Shown one piece after another: positions 6,710 to 20,097 of a stretch of 43,781 nt of DNA. The stretch is taken from positions 179 to 43,959 of the forward strand of contig QHBP01000415.1 in the NCBI GenBank assembly GCA_003244175.1, in the 5' to 3' direction. Under the pieces are notes generated by a model, which saw nothing but the letters and a program-made list of their open reading frames with translations, was not told where the DNA came from and did not search any database. Position numbers and translations under genes: made by a program. The stretch comes from Chloroflexota bacterium. Its GTDB lineage: Bacteria; Chloroflexota; UBA5177. The first letter of the stretch is position 1. Every line of letters starts with the position of its first letter.

Positions 6710-6955
6710 TCAGTCCGCCTCGTCTTCCTCGGTCTCGGCGATCGAGTACTGCGCGAACGTTTCTTGCACCGCGCTGGTGAGCTGCTGTACCTGTAGCTCC
6801 GCATTGGACAAAAGAGTCTCGCTGTGTCGGGCAAGCTCGGTGCCTCTCTTATAGAGTGCAACGGCTTCCTCGAGAGGGACATCAGATTGCTGCAGCCGCT
6901 CGACGATTTTTTCGAGCTGAGCCAGCGCGTCCTCAAAGGTCAGTGCCTCGCTCAT
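6710..6955 (-). CDS. xseB: Exodeoxyribonuclease VII small subunit
   Basis: An 81-residue protein of the expected size. It has the family pattern LTFEDALAQLEKIVERLQQSDVPLEEAVALYKRG near the N-terminus and a helical C-terminal half ending in an acidic tail. XseB binds the XseA large subunit to form exonuclease VII, which degrades single-stranded DNA from both ends. It overlaps the end of xseA by four bases (ATGA), a normal arrangement for the pair. Confidence 0.95.
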   Translation of the reverse strand: MSEALTFEDALAQLEKIVERLQQSDVPLEEAVALYKRGTELARHSETLLSNAELQVQQLTSAVQETFAQYSIAETEEDEAD

Positions 6956-8181
6956 GCGTTCTCCACCCGCACCACAAACTCTCCATCCGCCACACGCGCC
7001 GTCAGTGCCTGCCCGACGGACGCTTGGGCGCGCCGATTCAATACCCTACCCGTTTCCCTGTCCATCAGGACGGCATACCCGCGTTCCAGGACCGCCAACG
7101 GATCGAGAGCGGCGAGCCGGCCAAGTAGACCGTCCAGACGCGCGCGTTTCGCGTCGAGCAGGGCGTGCGCAGCATGCGACGCTCCACGCTCCAGCTCGTC
7201 CGCACGTTGCCGCTGGGTCCGCAACCTGGCCTTCGGGCTGGAGCGTAACAGCAATCGATTGAGCTCGAGCCAGCGTCTCCGCCGGCCTTGAAGCTGATGG
7301 CGCATACATCGCATCACCTGATCGTGCAGGCGGGCAGTTCGTTGGACAAGCGAGGCCACGTCCGGCACAGCGGCGGCGGCCGCCAGTGACGGAGTTGCTG
7401 CTCTAACATCGGCGACGAAGTCGGCGATCGAGTGATCCGTCTCGTGGCCAATGCCGGTGATGATCGGAAGCCGGGAAGCGAAGATCGCTCTGGCCAGGCG
7501 CTCGTCATTGAAGGCTGCCAAATCCTCCGGCGCGCCACCACCCCGAACCAAGAGAATCACCTCGGCATCGGTGAGACGATTGACGACATCAATCGCCATC
7601 GCCATCGCTCCGGCGGCGCCGTCGCCCTGCACCGACGCTCCGGCCACAATGACCGTGACAAAGGGGTACTGGGTTCGAAGCCTGTGCAGCACATCATGGT
7701 AGGCCTGGCTTCCAGGTGATGTGATCAAAGCAAGCTTCCTGGCAAACGAGGGGAGCGGTCGCTTGCGTTCCGGAGCGAACAGGCCCTCTTTCTCCAGCTG
7801 TGCCCGCACACGTTCGACCCGCTGGAACAGCGCGCCCTCACCCTGCGTCAAGACGCGTTCAACATACAGCTGATACGTGCCACGCGGCTCGTACAGCGTG
7901 AGGAACCCGTGGACAATGACCTCGGCGCCGCGACGCATCTGTCGGACGTCCTCCTGCTGGTATGCCGCTTCCCGTCGGAAAAGCACACAGGACAGCTGGC
8001 TCGTGGAGTCTTTGAGCGTGAAGTAGATGTGACCGCTGGCGGCCCGCGACAGTTCACCGATCTCGCCGCGCACGGAGAGAGCGCCGAGAAGATCATCGGC
8101 CTCGATCATCTGTTTGAGATAGCGGCTCACGTCGCTGACGCGCAAGAGGCCTCCCGATCGGGAGGAGACCCGTTCAGTCAT
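6952..8181 (-). CDS. xseA: Exodeoxyribonuclease VII large subunit
   Basis: A 409-residue XseA. An N-terminal OB-fold (LRVSDVSRYLKQMIEADDLLGALSVRGEIGELSRAASGHIYFTLKD) precedes the catalytic region (ALITSPGSQAYHDVLHRL, VILLVRGGGAPEDLAAFNDERLARAI, PIITGIGHETDHSIADFVADVRAATPSLAA). A helical region and the short RGYAVLM segment close the protein. It processes single-stranded DNA in recombination and repair. The start overlaps the end of the accB-like gene by 8 bases, so it is translationally coupled to it. Confidence 0.95.
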   Translation of the reverse strand: MTERVSSRSGGLLRVSDVSRYLKQMIEADDLLGALSVRGEIGELSRAASGHIYFTLKDSTSQLSCVLFRREAAYQQEDVRQMRRGAEVIVHGFLTLYEPRGTYQLYVERVLTQGEGALFQRVERVRAQLEKEGLFAPERKRPLPSFARKLALITSPGSQAYHDVLHRLRTQYPFVTVIVAGASVQGDGAAGAMAMAIDVVNRLTDAEVILLVRGGGAPEDLAAFNDERLARAIFASRLPIITGIGHETDHSIADFVADVRAATPSLAAAAAVPDVASLVQRTARLHDQVMRCMRHQLQGRRRRWLELNRLLLRSSPKARLRTQRQRADELERGASHAAHALLDAKRARLDGLLGRLAALDPLAVLERGYAVLMDRETGRVLNRRAQASVGQALTARVADGEFVVRVENA

Positions 8182-8620
8182 CGATCTCTACCCGAAACAA
8201 GGTCTGACCATACTCAACCGGCTGCCCGTCGGTGGCGAGAGCCTCGACCACCGACCCGTCGCACCGCGCCATCACGTCTGTAAGCTCCTGCAAGGCTTCG
8301 ATGATGCCAACCACGGTTCCATCGTCTACACGTGATCCCTCCGACACCAGGGGAGCGGATCCGGGCTTTCCGGCACGATAGAACGTGCCGACGAGAGGAG
8401 ACACAATGGCTGCTATATGGGGCCCGGCAGTTCTCTCCACGGGCGTCTGTTGGAAAGCGAGCGGGACCGACATCTCCCGCATATCCTGACTACGGTGTAG
8501 CCGCACCCGATTGGGACCGTCTTGGATCTCCAGCTCGGCGATGTCGCTGCCCTGCAGTGCGATCACGATGTCTTGCAGATCCCTCTCTGCGTCGTCCACG
8601 TTCCCCCTCCGCTCGCTCAT
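8174..8620 (-). CDS. AccB-like biotinyl-domain protein lacking the biotin-acceptor lysine
   Basis: A 148-residue protein built like the biotin carboxyl carrier protein of acetyl-CoA carboxylase. It has an N-terminal helix and SDIAELEI segment, a linker, and a C-terminal biotinyl barrel starting at VSPLVGTFYRA (about 73-83) and ending DGQPVEYGQTLFRVE. The usual EAMKM hairpin is replaced by EALQEL, so residue 111 is Gln (codon at 8288-8290) where biotin is normally attached to Lys. It therefore should not carry biotin and resembles the biotin-less BADC proteins that modulate plant acetyl-CoA carboxylase. No accC is adjacent. The ATG at 8620 is preferred because it gives the usual AccB length; an in-frame TTG at 8665 adds 15 residues. 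Confidence 0.8.
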   Translation of the reverse strand: MSERRGNVDDAERDLQDIVIALQGSDIAELEIQDGPNRVRLHRSQDMREMSVPLAFQQTPVERTAGPHIAAIVSPLVGTFYRAGKPGSAPLVSEGSRVDDGTVVGIIEALQELTDVMARCDGSVVEALATDGQPVEYGQTLFRVEIDD

Positions 8621-8692: not shown

Positions 8693-9250
8693 TCAAGCGC
8701 GTTCTGTGTACTGCCCGGTGCGCGTGTCCACTCTGATGCGTTCGCCCTCATTGACAAACAGCGGCACCTGAACCACGAGCCCGGTTTCCAACGTTGCCGG
8801 CTTAGTGCCGGCGTTGGCAGTATCGCCACGAAAGCCCGGGTCCGTCTGCGTCACCAGCAGCTCCACGTTAGCAGGGAGGTCGGCGCCGATAGGCTCATCC
8901 TGGTGCGTCAGGAGCTCGACGGTCTGGTTGTCCCTGAGGTAATTGACGACGTCGCCTAGAACGTCGGCGTCAATGGGCGTTTGCTCATACGTCGTGAGAT
9001 CCATGAAGTGGTACGTGGCGTCCTCGTGATACAGGTACTGAACGGACCTGCGATCCAGTATCGCGCGGCGGAACTTTTCGCCCGCCTGGAACGTCTTCTC
9101 CACCGTGCTTCCGGTCTTGAGATTACGCACCTTCATTCGCACCTGCGCGCTACCACGACCCATCTTGATGTGGTGGTGCTCGAGAACGGCCCATAGCTCA
9201 CCATCGAGCTCGATGGCCATTCCACGTTTTAAGTCACCGGTGGAGATCAT
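8693..9250 (-). CDS. efp: Translation elongation factor P
   Basis: A 185-residue EF-P, which binds ribosomes stalled at proline stretches. All three domains are present: the N-terminal KOW-like domain (MISTGDLKRGMAIELDGELW), the central OB domain (VQYLYHEDATYHFMDLTTYEQ) and the C-terminal domain with the signature GFRGDTANAGTKPATLETG. The tip that reaches the peptidyl-transferase centre reads KMGRGSA, so the residue often modified as Lys in other bacteria is Arg32, as in Thermus-type proteins. No modification enzyme gene is nearby. It lies just downstream of mltG and upstream of the accB-like gene. Confidence 0.96.
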   Translation of the reverse strand: MISTGDLKRGMAIELDGELWAVLEHHHIKMGRGSAQVRMKVRNLKTGSTVEKTFQAGEKFRRAILDRRSVQYLYHEDATYHFMDLTTYEQTPIDADVLGDVVNYLRDNQTVELLTHQDEPIGADLPANVELLVTQTDPGFRGDTANAGTKPATLETGLVVQVPLFVNEGERIRVDTRTGQYTERA

Positions 9251-13873: not shown

Positions 13874-14605
13874 CTAGTGTGGCACGCCGGCTGCCGGTCG
13901 CAACCCCCGGGAAGCGGCCCTCCTCAGGGCCTCGATGGAGGCGGAGACACCCGTTTCGGACTGATAGACAGACGTGCCGGCGACAAGGACCCGAGCCCCT
14001 GCCTGTACTACCTGTTCCGCGGTCTCAAACGTGACTCCACCGTCGACCTCCAGCTCGGCGGCGTCCTCCCGTCGATCAATCGTCCGACGAAGCGCCGATA
14101 TCTTTCGCAGCATGGGGCTGATGAACTTCTGACCGCCGAAGCCGGGGTTGACCGTCATGACGAGAATGAGGTCGGCGATGTCAAGGACCTCCTCAACAGC
14201 TATCCAGTGCGTCGCAGGGTTGATTGCCACACCCGCTCGGCAGCCGGCGTCATGAATCTGCTGCATCGTCCGGTATAGGTGGGGCGATACCTCGCAGTGC
14301 ACTATGATCACATCCGTGCCCGCGTCTGCAAACGCTTGCACGTAACGCTCGGGCTCGACGACCATCAGGTGCGCCTCCAGGGGCATGGAGGTTGCGGTCC
14401 GAATCGCCCGCACGACGGGCGGCCCGATCGTGATGTTGGGAACGAAGCGGCCGTCCATGACGTCGATGTGCAGGCGATCTCCGCCGCCTCTCTCTGCCTC
14501 CCCGACCGCGTCGCCCAGCTTCAAAAAGTTACTGGCCAGGATGGATGGGGCGATCTGAATGGAGGATACCGTGGATGCGGTCTCCCGCCTTTGCTCCACC
14601 GTCAC
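13874..14605 (-). CDS. rpe: Ribulose-phosphate 3-epimerase
   Basis: A 243-residue TIM-barrel enzyme that interconverts ribulose 5-phosphate and xylulose 5-phosphate. The motifs are clear: IAPSILASNFLKLGD, LHIDVMDGRFVPNITIGP (metal ligands), LEAHLMVVEPERY, ILVMTVNPGFGGQKFI and ELEVDGGV. The start is taken as GTG at 14605, overlapping the pgl stop by four bases. A second GTG at 14599 is better spaced from the AAGGA sequence, so the start is uncertain by two residues. It is the last recognised pentose phosphate gene of the operon. Confidence 0.95.
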   Translation of the reverse strand: MTVEQRRETASTVSSIQIAPSILASNFLKLGDAVGEAERGGGDRLHIDVMDGRFVPNITIGPPVVRAIRTATSMPLEAHLMVVEPERYVQAFADAGTDVIIVHCEVSPHLYRTMQQIHDAGCRAGVAINPATHWIAVEEVLDIADLILVMTVNPGFGGQKFISPMLRKISALRRTIDRREDAAELEVDGGVTFETAEQVVQAGARVLVAGTSVYQSETGVSASIEALRRAASRGLRPAAGVPH

Positions 14606-15366
14606 ACTTCCTTGGGGCGCGCGTTCAGACCTGAGGCGGCCCGCTCGTCGAGGAACCATAGCAACTTTCCGTCAGCCGGATGAATTCCGGACGCCGGTAG
14701 GTCGCTCTTGCCCGACATCACCTCCGAAACGCGCTCGGCCTTGTCGGAGCCCTGGACAAGGAAGCTCACGCGCCTGGCGGCGTTTATGAGCGGATAGGTG
14801 AAAGAAATCCGCCAGGTCTTCATCGACTCCACGTAGTTCGCTACGATCAGCTTATCCCGCTCGCTCAGACCCTCTGAGCCGGGAAAGAGCGACGCTGTAT
14901 GCCCGTCCGGACCGAGCCCGAGAAGGATCACGTCGAACATCGGGATGACGCCGGCGGACACATTGAACGCGCGTCGCAAAGTCTCCTCATACAGCTCCGC
15001 GGCCCTCTCCGGCGTGACGCTTTCCGTCTCGACGCGGTACACAGACCGTTCGGGCACCGGGATATGGGAAAGCAAACTCTCACGCGCCATACCATAGTTA
15101 CTTTCCGAAGAGGTGGGCGGCACGAATCGCTCGTCTCCGAAAAATACGTGCACGCGCGACCAGTCGACAGTGTCTCGCAGCGGCGGCTCCGCCAGATGCG
15201 AGTAGACGGGTCGTGGAGTACTCCCGCCCGATAGTGCCCAGTAGAAGGTTCCTCGTTCGCGCACGGCTTCCCGCGCTCGTTCCGTCACCCAATGCGCGAC
15301 CTCTCTGGCCATCGTGTGAGCATCCGGAAACACCAAAGTCTCGGTTTGCGCAGGTCGTGTGGTCAT
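14602..15366 (-). CDS. pgl: 6-phosphogluconolactonase
   Basis: A 254-residue SOL/DevB-type lactonase that hydrolyses 6-phosphogluconolactone made by Zwf. Signatures are FYWALSGGSTPRPVYSHL (about 41-58), VHVFFGDERFVPPTSSESNYGMARESLL, and VILLGLGPDGHTASLFPGS with the catalytic His. It overlaps opcA upstream by four bases (ATGA) and rpe downstream by four bases, so translation of the three is coupled. Confidence 0.95.
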   Translation of the reverse strand: MTTRPAQTETLVFPDAHTMAREVAHWVTERAREAVRERGTFYWALSGGSTPRPVYSHLAEPPLRDTVDWSRVHVFFGDERFVPPTSSESNYGMARESLLSHIPVPERSVYRVETESVTPERAAELYEETLRRAFNVSAGVIPMFDVILLGLGPDGHTASLFPGSEGLSERDKLIVANYVESMKTWRISFTYPLINAARRVSFLVQGSDKAERVSEVMSGKSDLPASGIHPADGKLLWFLDERAASGLNARPKEV

Positions 15367-16511
15367 GTTGTCACCCAGGCCTGGCGCCCCGCGAGCCGGC
15401 TCGCCATCTCCACAATGTGGCCGTACACCGTGTCCTGGCCTGCCATCTCCAGCTCGTCGCCAAGGATCTCCGCCTCGTCCTTGGAAGCGATCGGAACCAC
15501 TCGTGTGATCTCGTTCCGCTCGTGGATGTGAACGCTGGCGCGCCCATTCTCAGAGTTCTCCATGCGCTCGACCTTGAAGCGCGCAGGCGGCAGGTCTTGC
15601 GGTTGCGACACCATCTCGAGTGCGCAGAGGCGTCCGGCCAGGCCTGAACCGTGGTCACGAAACTGAATCTGGATCGGGATCACGCGGTCACCTTGCGTAA
15701 CAGCCAGCTCGACGTCACGGTCGATCACGTTGTCCATGGTCGTTTCCGGGTCCCATCCGAGCTGCCGCGCCGTCCAGCCGACAAGAAGGAGCACCCCGGC
15801 CGTCACGCGATGTAGGTCATTGCCGCCCCCACCACACTCGATGCGAACCGAGCGAACATTGCTGGCATACGGGAGGTAGATTGGCGGATCAAAAAACTGT
15901 GCGACAATTTCGCGCCACTGCGCTAAGCGCGCCCAGTGAATGTCATTCACGCCCTGATTGAGCGTGCAAACCCGCACGAGGTTGGCAAGGCCGTCTCCCG
16001 GGGAGATGAACTCCGCCGAGTCGACGATCAGCTGACTAGCGACATGCAACAAGCGATGGAATTTCCGGTGCCCGAAGGGCGGCTGCCCGGGCCACCAGAG
16101 GTACGTCGGGAGCTCCGGCATCATGAGAGGAATCGACAGACTTGCGACGTGATCCGCGGTTCTCCCCCGAGCGGTGACAAGAAGCTGCTCATGGCCGAGC
16201 CTTCTATCTCCGACCGTGTGACACTGTACTGCCATTTCCACATCGACGGTGGACTTGGACGCGTATCGGTCGGCGATAAGGATGATGGCACGCGAAGGTT
16301 GTCGCTGCGACAGCTTGCTCAGGCTGTCCGCGATGCTTCTCGCATTGTCCTCGCTCTCGGTGTACACGAGGAGGTTGTAGAGGCTCGTCCGCACTGCGTG
16401 CGCCTGGTTGTTCTTCCCGGCCAGGCCGGTCCAGAGGCAAGAAAGCTGCCTCTCAATGGTCGTCACGTCCACGTCCGTGCCCTTCCAAGTCGCGCGTGCC
16501 GGCTCCGCCAC
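15363..16511 (-). CDS. opcA: Glucose-6-phosphate dehydrogenase assembly protein OpcA
   Basis: A 382-residue OpcA-family protein, known in cyanobacteria and actinobacteria as an assembly or redox-dependent activator of glucose-6-phosphate dehydrogenase. Family segments include DVTTIERQLSCLW near the start, RTSLYNLLVYTES, HPSR-type QPSRAIILIADRYA, LSIPLMMPELPTYLWWPGQPPF and AEFISPGDGLANL. The GTG at 16511 starts two bases after the zwf stop. An alternative GTG at 16472 has a GGAAGGG site seven bases upstream and would shorten the protein by 13 residues. Its place directly after zwf supports the function. Confidence 0.9.
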   Translation of the reverse strand: MAEPARATWKGTDVDVTTIERQLSCLWTGLAGKNNQAHAVRTSLYNLLVYTESEDNARSIADSLSKLSQRQPSRAIILIADRYASKSTVDVEMAVQCHTVGDRRLGHEQLLVTARGRTADHVASLSIPLMMPELPTYLWWPGQPPFGHRKFHRLLHVASQLIVDSAEFISPGDGLANLVRVCTLNQGVNDIHWARLAQWREIVAQFFDPPIYLPYASNVRSVRIECGGGGNDLHRVTAGVLLLVGWTARQLGWDPETTMDNVIDRDVELAVTQGDRVIPIQIQFRDHGSGLAGRLCALEMVSQPQDLPPARFKVERMENSENGRASVHIHERNEITRVVPIASKDEAEILGDELEMAGQDTVYGHIVEMASRLAGRQAWVTT

Positions 16512-16513
16512 GG

Positions 16514-18061
16514 CTACACCTGCCTCCACGAGCGGCCGTCGCAGCTCATGAGTTTGGCAGCGGCCTCTGGGCCCCATGTTCCAGCCGCGTAATTGGGAAA
16601 AGCCGAGGGCTGTTGCCCCTGCCAGTACTGGAGGATGGGGGTAATGATTGACCACTCGGCCTCCACTTCATCTCGGCGCGTGAAGAGCGTCGAGTCGCCC
16701 AGCATCACATCATGCAACAGGCGCTCATACGCCTCAGGCGATTGGCGGGCAAACGACGAGCCGTACAGGAAGTCCATATGCACCGGCTGAATCTCGATGC
16801 CCTGACCGGGCACCTTTGCCACGAATTTCAGGGACATGCCCTCGTCCGGCTGGATGCGCATCGCAAGGACATTTGGTGTCATGCTGTTTGCATCCAGGTG
16901 CTGGAAGAGTGCGAGAGGAGCGCGCTTGAACGAGACGGCTATCTCCGTTTCTTTCTTCGGCAGACGCTTACCGTGTCGTAGATAGAACGGGACGCCGGCC
17001 CAGCGCCAGTTGTCGACGTATGTCTTGAGGGCAACGTACGTCTCGGTCGACGATTCCGGATTGACGCCAGCCTCGGACCGGTAGCCCGGGACATCCTTGC
17101 CCCCGATCCAACCCGGGCCGTACTGGCCGCGCACAATATTCCGCGAGAATGCTTCCTCACTGAACGGCACAACTGCCCGCAACACCTTGACCTTCTCATC
17201 CCGCACCGCGTTTGCGTCGAGCGCGACAGGAGGCTCCATGGCCGTAAGCGTCAGCAGCTGGAGCATATGACTCTGGACCATGTCGCGCAGGGCACCTGCG
17301 CCCTCGTAGTACCCGCCGCGGCGGTCGATCCCAAGGTCCTCCGCCACCGTGATCTGGACGCTATCCACGTAGCTTCGATTCCATATTGGTTCAAAAAGAC
17401 CATTCGCGAAACGAAAGACCAGGATGTTCTGGACGGTCTCTTTCCCGAGGTAGTGATCGATGCGATAAATCTGGTCCTCGTGAAAAACCTGAAGCAGGTC
17501 ACGATTCAGCGTCTGCGCGCTGGTCAGGTCGAACCCAAAGGGTTTCTCGACGACGATACGTGTCCAGTGCTCGCCCGTCGCCGACGGCGTGACCAACCCG
17601 GCTTCTCCGAGCATGTGCGTAATTTGCGAGATGACAGTCGGAGGTGTCGCCAGGTAATAGATGCAGTTCCCCTGGGTTCCGCGTTCATGATCGATGCGGT
17701 CCAGCAGATCCGCTAGCTGCTTGTAACACTTCGCGTCCCCGAAATCTGCTTGCAGGAAGAACAATCCCTCGGCAAAGCTGTTCCAGACCTCGGCGTTGGT
17801 TCGGCCGTGCCGGGAATAAGTGTTGACGGCGTCGCGCAAATCTTGTCGGAAGTCCTCGTGCTCGTGGTCCTGTCGGGCAAAGCCGACGATCGAAAAGCCA
17901 TGGGGCAGCAGATGGTCGATCCCAAGGTTATAGAGCGCCGGAATCAGCTTCCGGTGGGCTAGATCTCCGGTAGCGCCCATTATGACGACGGTGCATGGAT
18001 CCGGCGTGCGCCGGCTCTGCGAGCCCGCACGCAGCGGGTTCTCCTGTACCTGCGTCTCGAT
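16514..18061 (-). CDS. zwf: Glucose-6-phosphate 1-dehydrogenase, apparent AUC start
   Basis: This enzyme oxidises glucose 6-phosphate with NAD(P)+, the entry to the oxidative pentose phosphate pathway. Visible motifs are [21 protein letters not shown] (nucleotide binding), [12 protein letters not shown], the active-site RIDHYLGKE and [11 protein letters not shown]. The reading frame has no ATG, GTG or TTG between the tkt stop and the nucleotide-binding motif. The best start is AUC at 18061-18059. It lies two bases after the tkt stop, with GGGAGGAA six bases upstream, and gives 515 residues, the normal family length. The next canonical codons upstream (18211, 18208, 18202) lie deep inside tkt and add about 50 unrelated residues. 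A sequencing error remains possible. Confidence 0.93.
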
Positions 18062-18063
18062 CT

Positions 18064-20097
18064 CTACTTCCTCCCGAGAAGGGTAAGCGCCTGTCTCGCC
18101 ACATTGTCCCCGGTTAGGCCCATGTGCTCCGCTATCACCTTCGCCGGGGCAGACGCGCCGAAGTGATCGATGCCGACGCTCGCGCCCTTGTCCCCCACCC
18201 ATGTGCACCAAGCAAAAGTCGCACCCGCTTCCACCGAGAGACGGGCTGTCACGCTCGGCGGCAATACCGAATCGCGGTACTCCTCGGGCTGTTTCTCAAA
18301 GAGCTCCCAGCTTGGGAAGCTGACGACACGCGCGTGCACGCGCTGATACGCCAGCTGTTCCCGCGCTTGCACACAGAGAGCAACCTCGGTACCCGTCCCC
18401 ATGAGAATGATGTCCGGCTTGCCGCCCTCGGCTTCTTGCAGTACATAGGCGCCTCGGGAAAGATCGCCCCGCGCCGCGGATCGATCAAGGACCGGCGTTT
18501 TTTGACGGCTCAACACGAGCGCGACCGGGTGCTCCCAATGAGTCATGACCCAACGCCACGCATCGACCGTCTCGTTCGCATCACTGGGCCGCAGCACGAT
18601 CAAGTGCGGCATGACCCTTAGGGACATGAGATGCTCGACTGGTTGATGTGTGGGGCCATCCTCGCCCAGCAGAACGCTGTCGTGCGTGTAGAGGAAGATG
18701 GTCGGGACGTCCATGATACACGCCATGCGCACTGCGGGGCGCTGGTAGTCCGAGAAGGTGAAGAAGGTGGCGCCGAAAGCTCGCAGTAGTCCATTGGCCA
18801 TGATCCCGTTGACGATGCTTCCCATGGCGTGCTCCCGCACCCCAAAATGAATGTTGCGGCCGCCGTAATTGCCGGGCTCGAAGTCGCCGAAGCCAATCAG
18901 GTTATTCTTTGTGCTCGGCGCCAGATCGGCATCCCCACCCATGAACGTGGGCACGTTCTTGGCGATGGCGTTCATGGCCTTACCACCGGCCTCCCGCGTG
19001 GCGACACCGGCTGGATCCGGCTCCCATGACGGCAGCTCCGCATCCCAGCCATCGGGCACCTGCCAGGTCCTGGCACGGTCCCAGGTCTGGGCCTCATTTG
19101 GGTATTCGGCGCGCCATCGGTCGAATTTCTGAGTCCATTGCTCTTCGAGCTGCTGTCCTCGTGGTACTGCCCTACGGAATTCGTCGAGAACCCCGTCTGG
19201 AATGAAAAACGGCTCGTCCGTCGGCCAACCCAGGCTTTTTTTCGTCTCCGCGACCTCGTCCGTTCCCAAGGGCTCTCCATGAGCCTGGAAGGTCCCGGCC
19301 TTGTGCGGGCTACCATAGCCGATGACGGTCGCGACGGGAATCAATGATGGCTTGTCGGCGACGTCTTGCGCCTCTTTGATGGCCCTCGCGATGGCCTCGA
19401 CGTCGTTGCCATCCTGCACCTCATTGACATGCCATCCGTAGGCACGGAAGCGTTCGGACACGTTCTCCGTAAAGGTCACGTCAGCGGGGCCGGACAGCTG
19501 TACTTTGTTCGAATCGTACAGATAGATGAGCTTGCCCAGTTGAAGGTGGCCCGCGAGGGAGGCAGCCTCTGAGGCCACGCCCTCTTGCAGATCACCGTCG
19601 CTGACAAAACCGTAAATGTAGTGATCCACCAGGTCGAAGCCCGGGCGATTGAAGAGCTGACCGAGATACGCCTCTGCGATCGCCATTCCAACGCCGTTGG
19701 CGAAGCCCTGACCCAGAGGGCCGGTGCTGACTTCCACCCCAGGAGTCATCCGGTACTCCGGGTGCCCGGGAGTTTTCGATTCCCACTGCCGAAAGCTCTT
19801 GAGGTCGTCGAGACTGAGATCGTACCCCGTCAGGTAGAGAAGTGAGTACAAAACCATGGAGGCATGCCCAGCCGACAGTACGAAACGGTCCCGGTTGGGC
19901 CAATCCGAGTTGCGCGGATTGTACCGCAGGAACCGGGTGAATAGGGTATACGCCATGGGCGCCATTCCCAGTGGCGCCCCGGGGTGACCGGAATTCGCTT
20001 TCTGCACGGCGTCAATGGACAGCGTGCGGATCGTATTGATCATCAGCTCTTGCATCTGATTGCTGGTGGTCGGCCTGTTCTCCGTCGTGGTTGTCAT
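18064..20097 (-). CDS. tkt: Transketolase
   Basis: A 677-residue thiamine-diphosphate enzyme that moves two-carbon units between pentose and triose/hexose phosphates. The N-terminal domain has [18 protein letters not shown] and the cofactor/metal motif [20 protein letters not shown]. The middle domain has [15 protein letters not shown] and [15 protein letters not shown] with [25 protein letters not shown]. The C-terminal domain is complete. The ATG at 20097 has GGAGAG seven bases upstream. It lies between the sugar kinase gene and zwf; its own end carries the ribosome site used by zwf. Confidence 0.97.

Follow-up and report, generated by a model that had tools for sequence, protein, structure and literature searches.

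An AccB-like protein with glutamine in place of the biotin-accepting lysine, encoded between efp and xseA in Chloroflexota, is a probable non-catalytic subunit of bacterial acetyl-CoA carboxylase

Acetyl-CoA carboxylase (ACC) commits carbon to fatty acids. Homologues of its biotin carboxyl carrier protein (BCCP, AccB) that lack the biotinylated lysine are already known from plants as BADC. In Arabidopsis, an organism with heteromeric ACC, BADC1-3 occur beside a Lys-bearing BCCP, and subunits of this type have been called unique to the plant enzyme (PMC11926652). According to the older model they are inhibitory, whereas they have also been reported to facilitate the assembly of biotin carboxylase (BC) with BCCP (PMC11926652).

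The reference for bacterial AccB is the E. coli protein (TIGR00531; PDB 1bdo and 4hr7), built of an N-terminal helix-hairpin part, a linker and a C-terminal biotinyl barrel-sandwich domain, with the biotin-accepting lysine in the EAMK hairpin. To our knowledge, the epsilon subunit AccE of actinobacterial acyl-CoA carboxylases is not a BCCP homologue. It is small and non-catalytic and serves the assembly of a biotin-dependent carboxylase in bacteria (PMC3199775), a role similar to the one proposed below for the protein under study, and such 'glue' subunits are also referred to in PMC11926652. BC1 of Chloroflexus aurantiacus (PDB 8HZ4), which belongs to the same phylum as the locus described here, is a fused BC-BCCP biotinylated at Lys553, and the N-terminal hairpin of its BCCP part oligomerises BC independently of the biotinyl core: alone, without this core, the hairpin tetramerises BC and raises BC activity (PMC11077971). 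A stand-alone Lys-less AccB is not mentioned in the BC1 paper, and no report of a bacterial Lys-less AccB was found in the open-licence literature.

The window, i.e. the whole stretch of 43,781 nucleotides that was analysed, originates from the draft genome of a Chloroflexota bacterium (GCA_003244175.1, contig QHBP01000415.1) and carries a gene for an AccB-like protein designated here accB' (Table 1). The initial annotation had noticed Gln in place of the biotinylated Lys in this reading frame. The residue, Gln111, and its CAG codon were confirmed and the gene was assigned to the minus strand, which had not been given before. The described setting was also borne out, with efp upstream, xseA downstream and accC not adjoining accB'.

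Table 1. Coordinates of accB', its parts and its neighbours in the window
Feature	Position	Strand	Basis
accB', AccB-like protein without biotin-accepting lysine, 148 aa	8174..8620	minus	translation, Pfam, NCBIfam, AF2/Foldseek
codon 111, CAG (Gln), biotin-attachment position, EALQ for EAMK	8288..8290	minus	translation, alignment; Gln conserved in G001-G005 orthologues
VEYGQ motif (residues 135-139), hardly varying among Lys-less AccBs	8204..8218	minus	column conservation, alignment
N-terminal helix (residues 8-23) and beta-hairpin (29-34, 37-42), non-biotinyl part of AccB	8495..8599	minus	AF2 secondary structure; profile alignment to E. coli BCCP residues 21-176
efp (elongation factor P), next gene upstream of accB'	8693..9250	minus	Pfam; conserved in relatives
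xseA (large subunit of exonuclease VII), overlapping the accB' stop by 8 bp at its start	6952..8181	minus	ORF coordinates, Pfam; conserved in relatives
xseB-like, exonuclease VII small subunit	6710..6955	minus	ORF; matches at same place in relatives

The biotinyl domain of AccB' had been judged intact, in agreement with its PF00364 match (residues 72-143), which scored 35.6 bits and exceeded the gathering cut-off of 22.1 bits. The best sequence match in PDB was E. coli BCCP (4hr7_B, E 4e-13). The AccB' hairpin G-I-I-E-A-L-Q111-E-L-T-D-V aligned without gaps with I-V-E-A-M-K of the E. coli protein, and Gln111 fell on the biotinylated lysine. The biotin-accepting Lys of the EAMK hairpin, a feature of AccB, is thus absent from AccB', which shares with BADC the property of being a BCCP homologue without the biotinylation motif. 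Because the sole lysine of AccB', K85, sits in the thumb segment RAGKPG, there is no lysine in the hairpin at all. The score of AccB' against NCBIfam TIGR00531 was 89.7 bits (cut-off 115.2). This score was rejected as a discriminator of Lys-less AccBs, a Lys-bearing AccB of the same family reaching 77.3 bits, also below the cut-off.

The AF2 model of AccB' consists of the N-terminal helix and hairpin listed in Table 1, a loose linker and a domain encompassing residues 69-146, with block-mean pLDDT of 95-98 across residues 71-148 and Q111 at the hairpin tip. The search with Foldseek indicated the E. coli biotinyl domain 1bdo as the best match (TMt 0.90, rmsd 1.0) and Arabidopsis BCCP1 as the second. 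Judging by AF2, Foldseek and Pfam, AccB' has the two-part architecture of AccB; it has in common with E. coli BCCP also the biotinyl fold, the alignment along E. coli residues 21-176 and the thumb length, and differs from it by Gln111 at the position of the biotin-accepting lysine. In nearly all Lys copies, the distance from the VGxF glycine to the biotin site amounted to 33 residues, as it did, by direct count, in AccB'. A distance of 26-28 residues, i.e. a shortened thumb, characterised the majority of Lys-less copies from Armatimonadota and Vulcanimicrobiota as well as some Chloroflexota families. This shortening, by about 5-6 residues, was seen for instance at loci L197, L198, L244 and L246. 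Successive positions of the VEYGQ motif were conserved in 100, 94, 87, 100 and 87% of Lys-less copies, with lower conservation there in the pooled Lys copies.

The five nearest genomes (G001-G005) represent Chloroflexota of the UBA5177 group. All five have Gln and none has Lys at the biotin site of the orthologue, and all share the gene order efp-accB'-xseA-xseB; the survey of orthologues for Gln, which the initial annotation had suggested, thus showed it to be conserved in this group. Gln was also present at this site in G006, a genome of the same class as the window. Since Gln recurs in every same-family, same-order orthologue (G001-G005), Gln111 is more than a chance occurrence. Each of the five genomes also encodes a second, Lys-bearing AccB (ETMKLFNEV), whose gene adjoins fabF and/or fabH. 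Two MAGs labelled 'Proteobacteria bacterium' (L122 and L123; Centralia_MAG_338 and Centralia_MAG_67) grouped with the Chloroflexota relatives of the window by the accB' locus and are probably mislabelled records.

The dN/dS values were 0.05-0.19 for close Lys-less pairs (families f10, f12, f18 and f22) and 0.13-0.30 for close Lys pairs (f12, f18 and f22). For more distant pairs the values were higher in both kinds, and the medians of all pairs amounted to 0.36 (Lys-less) and 0.21 (Lys). The Lys-less AccB genes are under purifying selection. A sequencing error or a pseudogene as the source of Gln111 was ruled out by this selection together with the conserved Gln in the relatives.

The draft genome containing the window (G000) comprises 3.7 Mb and is 82% complete. 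It encodes its own stand-alone AccC of 447 aa (G000:C256:15138-16457), scoring above the TIGR00514 cut-off; the accC neighbourhood in the window's class, with fabG and nusB, is conserved in several relatives. Two more biotin carboxylases are encoded in the same genome, each with its own EAMKM domain. The frame of one biotin carboxylase fused to an EAMKM domain (L001, G000:C142:2233-4204) is broken into two overlapping parts, which points to a frameshift or an assembly error. A second stand-alone AccB was not found in the draft assembly when it was searched with PF00364 and with the Lys-bearing AccB of a relative, all matches being domains linked to biotin carboxylases. Neither fabH nor a fab-type fabF was found in this assembly. 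The sole strong FabF-family match (L427, G000:C234:5949-7169) was flanked by oxidoreductase-like and polyketide-cyclase-like frames and, read by eye, looks like a polyketide-type ketosynthase. As fabF, accB and fabH form one cluster in the relatives, a gap in the assembly accounts for all three absences and is their most likely explanation. The initial annotation had proposed to look for a second, Lys-bearing accB near accC. In the draft genome the stand-alone accC is present and no such accB was found; in the five nearest genomes the Lys-bearing gene does exist, though in the fab cluster and not by accC.

To compare the two kinds of AccB across the phylum, stand-alone AccBs were taken from 64 Chloroflexota genomes. 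Exactly one Lys and one Lys-less copy were present in 42 genomes from 17 families. The biotin site of the Lys-less Chloroflexota copies was occupied by G (22 copies), N (10), Q (7), R (5) or D (2). When a fab-linked Lys copy was present in the genome, 43 of the 44 operon-type copies were Lys-less, and when it was not, 18 of 21 retained Lys and three were Lys-less (Fisher p 5e-12 for the Lys state versus the presence of the fab-linked copy, with relatedness ignored). In a tree built with the lysine column removed, the fab-linked Lys copies formed one group (86/81), the Gln group of six including the window was starred (96/99), and the Lys state required two changes.

When 84,980 species genomes of a collection were scanned with the Gln alignment, Lys-less genes were also matched in one Armatimonadota and one Eremiobacterota (Vulcanimicrobiota) genome, both beside accC. 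Among 40 Armatimonadota genomes read, 26 combined one Lys AccB with one Lys-less AccB, and two Lys copies were present in 11; the corresponding numbers for 31 Vulcanimicrobiota genomes were 27 and two. The loss of Lys is not universal, since these 11 and two genomes have it in both copies. Next to accC or efp, there were 27 Lys-less versus 10 Lys copies in Armatimonadota and 29 versus two in Vulcanimicrobiota, and the copies located elsewhere all had Lys (40/40 and 29/29, respectively). In both phyla the Lys-less copy was found directly upstream of accC. Six operon-type Armatimonadota copies (L295, L298, L318, L321, L330 and L339) kept Lys within unusual flanks (ESLKVPNEI, EAMKVPNEL, ESMKLLNDV, ESMKLMND). 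They are located in genomes with a second Lys AccB and may be intermediates preceding the loss of lysine.

No Lys-less stand-alone AccB was detected in 14 genomes of other phyla, in which every stand-alone AccB had Lys. One Gln match in this set (L421) was discarded as spurious, being an unrelated-looking frame of 415 aa. The combined tree of AccBs was weakly supported and implied eight state changes. With about 170 columns, the AccB alignment is too short for this tree to distinguish a single loss of the lysine from several.

The presence of a Lys-less copy beside a normal AccB in most sampled two-copy genomes of the three phyla argues for a probable helper subunit of the enzyme, a type which has so far been described from the chloroplasts of plants. 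AccB' is probably a non-biotinylated BCCP paralogue acting as a non-catalytic subunit of heteromeric ACC. It would enter the AccC(BC)-AccB subcomplex via its N-terminal helix/hairpin and the conserved VEYGQ face, would take some of the BCCP positions there, unable to carry CO2, and might thereby set the assembly state or activity of ACC, as proposed for plant BADC. Such modulation of the BC subcomplex is plausible because the Chloroflexus hairpin tetramerises BC and plant BADC was reported to aid BC-BCCP assembly. The Chloroflexus hairpin, part of a fused BC-BCCP, is compared with that of AccB as an analogue and not as a homologue.

The best reading is that AccB' works like plant BADC, membership in BADC proper not being claimed: AccB' is bacterial and is encoded with efp/xseA or accC. 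The bacterial BADC counterpart postulated in the initial annotation is retained as a working analogy, in line with the AccB-like character of the protein, the conserved loss of Lys, the Lys-AccB of the relatives and the position upstream of accC in two other phyla. Occupation of the carrier position and down-regulation of ACC, which formed part of that proposal, are not supported as such, and the plant work itself is split between inhibition and assembly (PMC11926652). Assembly is somewhat favoured over inhibition as the effect of AccB'. The lack of an adjoining accC in the window's own class was counted against a role as an ACC subunit, and so were the retention of Lys in both copies of some Armatimonadota and Vulcanimicrobiota genomes and the failure to find a Lys AccB in the window's own assembly, although fabH and a fab-type fabF are missing there too. 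In this class, efp-accB'-xseA-xseB probably forms one transcription unit, and judging by gene order it would be what is left of an ancestral efp-accB-accC operon after accC had moved to the fabG-accC-nusB cluster.

Several other explanations were weighed. AccB' could be an inhibitory decoy, reducing the flux through ACC by competition with biotinylated AccB for AccC, as assumed in the initial annotation and in the original BADC model. The anatomy and gene linkage fit a decoy equally as well as a helper subunit, a carrier position filled by a protein that lacks the lysine would be poisoned, and BADC proteins have been described as competitors of BCCP for BC (PMC7712654). This explanation nevertheless seems rather unlikely: the near-constant retention together with a Lys-AccB and the placement in accC operons suggest fixed co-production, which would be expected more readily of a structural subunit than of a switch, and the authors of the plant reconstitution and NMR work oppose the inhibitory model (PMC11926652). 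The location of the gene between efp and xseA, away from accC, in most Chloroflexota could also mean that AccB' has left fatty-acid metabolism and become a partner of EF-P or exonuclease VII. Such a change of role is improbable, given that the Lys-less copy adjoins accC in Armatimonadota and Vulcanimicrobiota and lies by accC, close to fab genes, in Chloroflexota families f10, f21 and f29. Moreover, in families f4, f5, f14 and f23 the efp/xseA place is held by the single AccB, with its lysine kept, so this place is likely ancestral and not diagnostic.

A decaying, functionless relic of a duplicated accB would be compatible with the second working AccB in the relatives and with the several different residues replacing the lysine, but it is scarcely credible in view of the intact reading frames in the genomes read and the strong purifying selection between close pairs, which largely contradicts it. 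The near-invariant VEYGQ motif, the persistence in three phyla and the confident predicted fold also speak against a relic. Since no Lys-bearing stand-alone AccB was found in the draft genome, AccB' might instead be the sole stand-alone BCCP of this organism, modified elsewhere (e.g., at K85) or working biotin-free. This was considered very improbable, because the assembly is incomplete and lacks also fabH and the fab-type fabF that normally flank the Lys copy, and because each of the five nearest genomes does contain this copy. K85, in turn, belongs to the thumb and not to the hairpin, and its position is occupied by Lys in just two of the six aligned orthologues.

With AccB' read as a non-catalytic ACC subunit, the conserved bacterial Lys-less AccBs, many of them next to accC, would offer small reconstitutable systems for studying the role of a non-biotinylated BCCP. 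The role of BADC is disputed between inhibition and assembly (PMC11926652), and the bacterial set could settle it. It seems about evenly balanced whether Lys-less AccB is a standing ACC subunit in most Chloroflexota, Armatimonadota and Vulcanimicrobiota, which would make mixed complexes of biotinylated and non-biotinylated BCCP a widespread bacterial design and not a plant invention, with plant BADC convergent or its heir. The pattern is recurrent: in the presence of a second Lys AccB, biotin is usually abandoned by the copy whose locus looks ancestral. The domain-based annotation of such a gene as 'biotin carboxyl carrier protein' would be wrong in its one defining property.

The window also contains a pentose-phosphate block on the minus strand (13877-20097), encoding, according to Pfam, ribulose-phosphate 3-epimerase, 6-phosphogluconolactonase, an OpcA-like glucose-6-phosphate dehydrogenase (G6PD) assembly protein, G6PD and transketolase. 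The block is located upstream of alaS-ruvX-mltG-efp-accB'-xseAB, and all of these genes are on the same strand.
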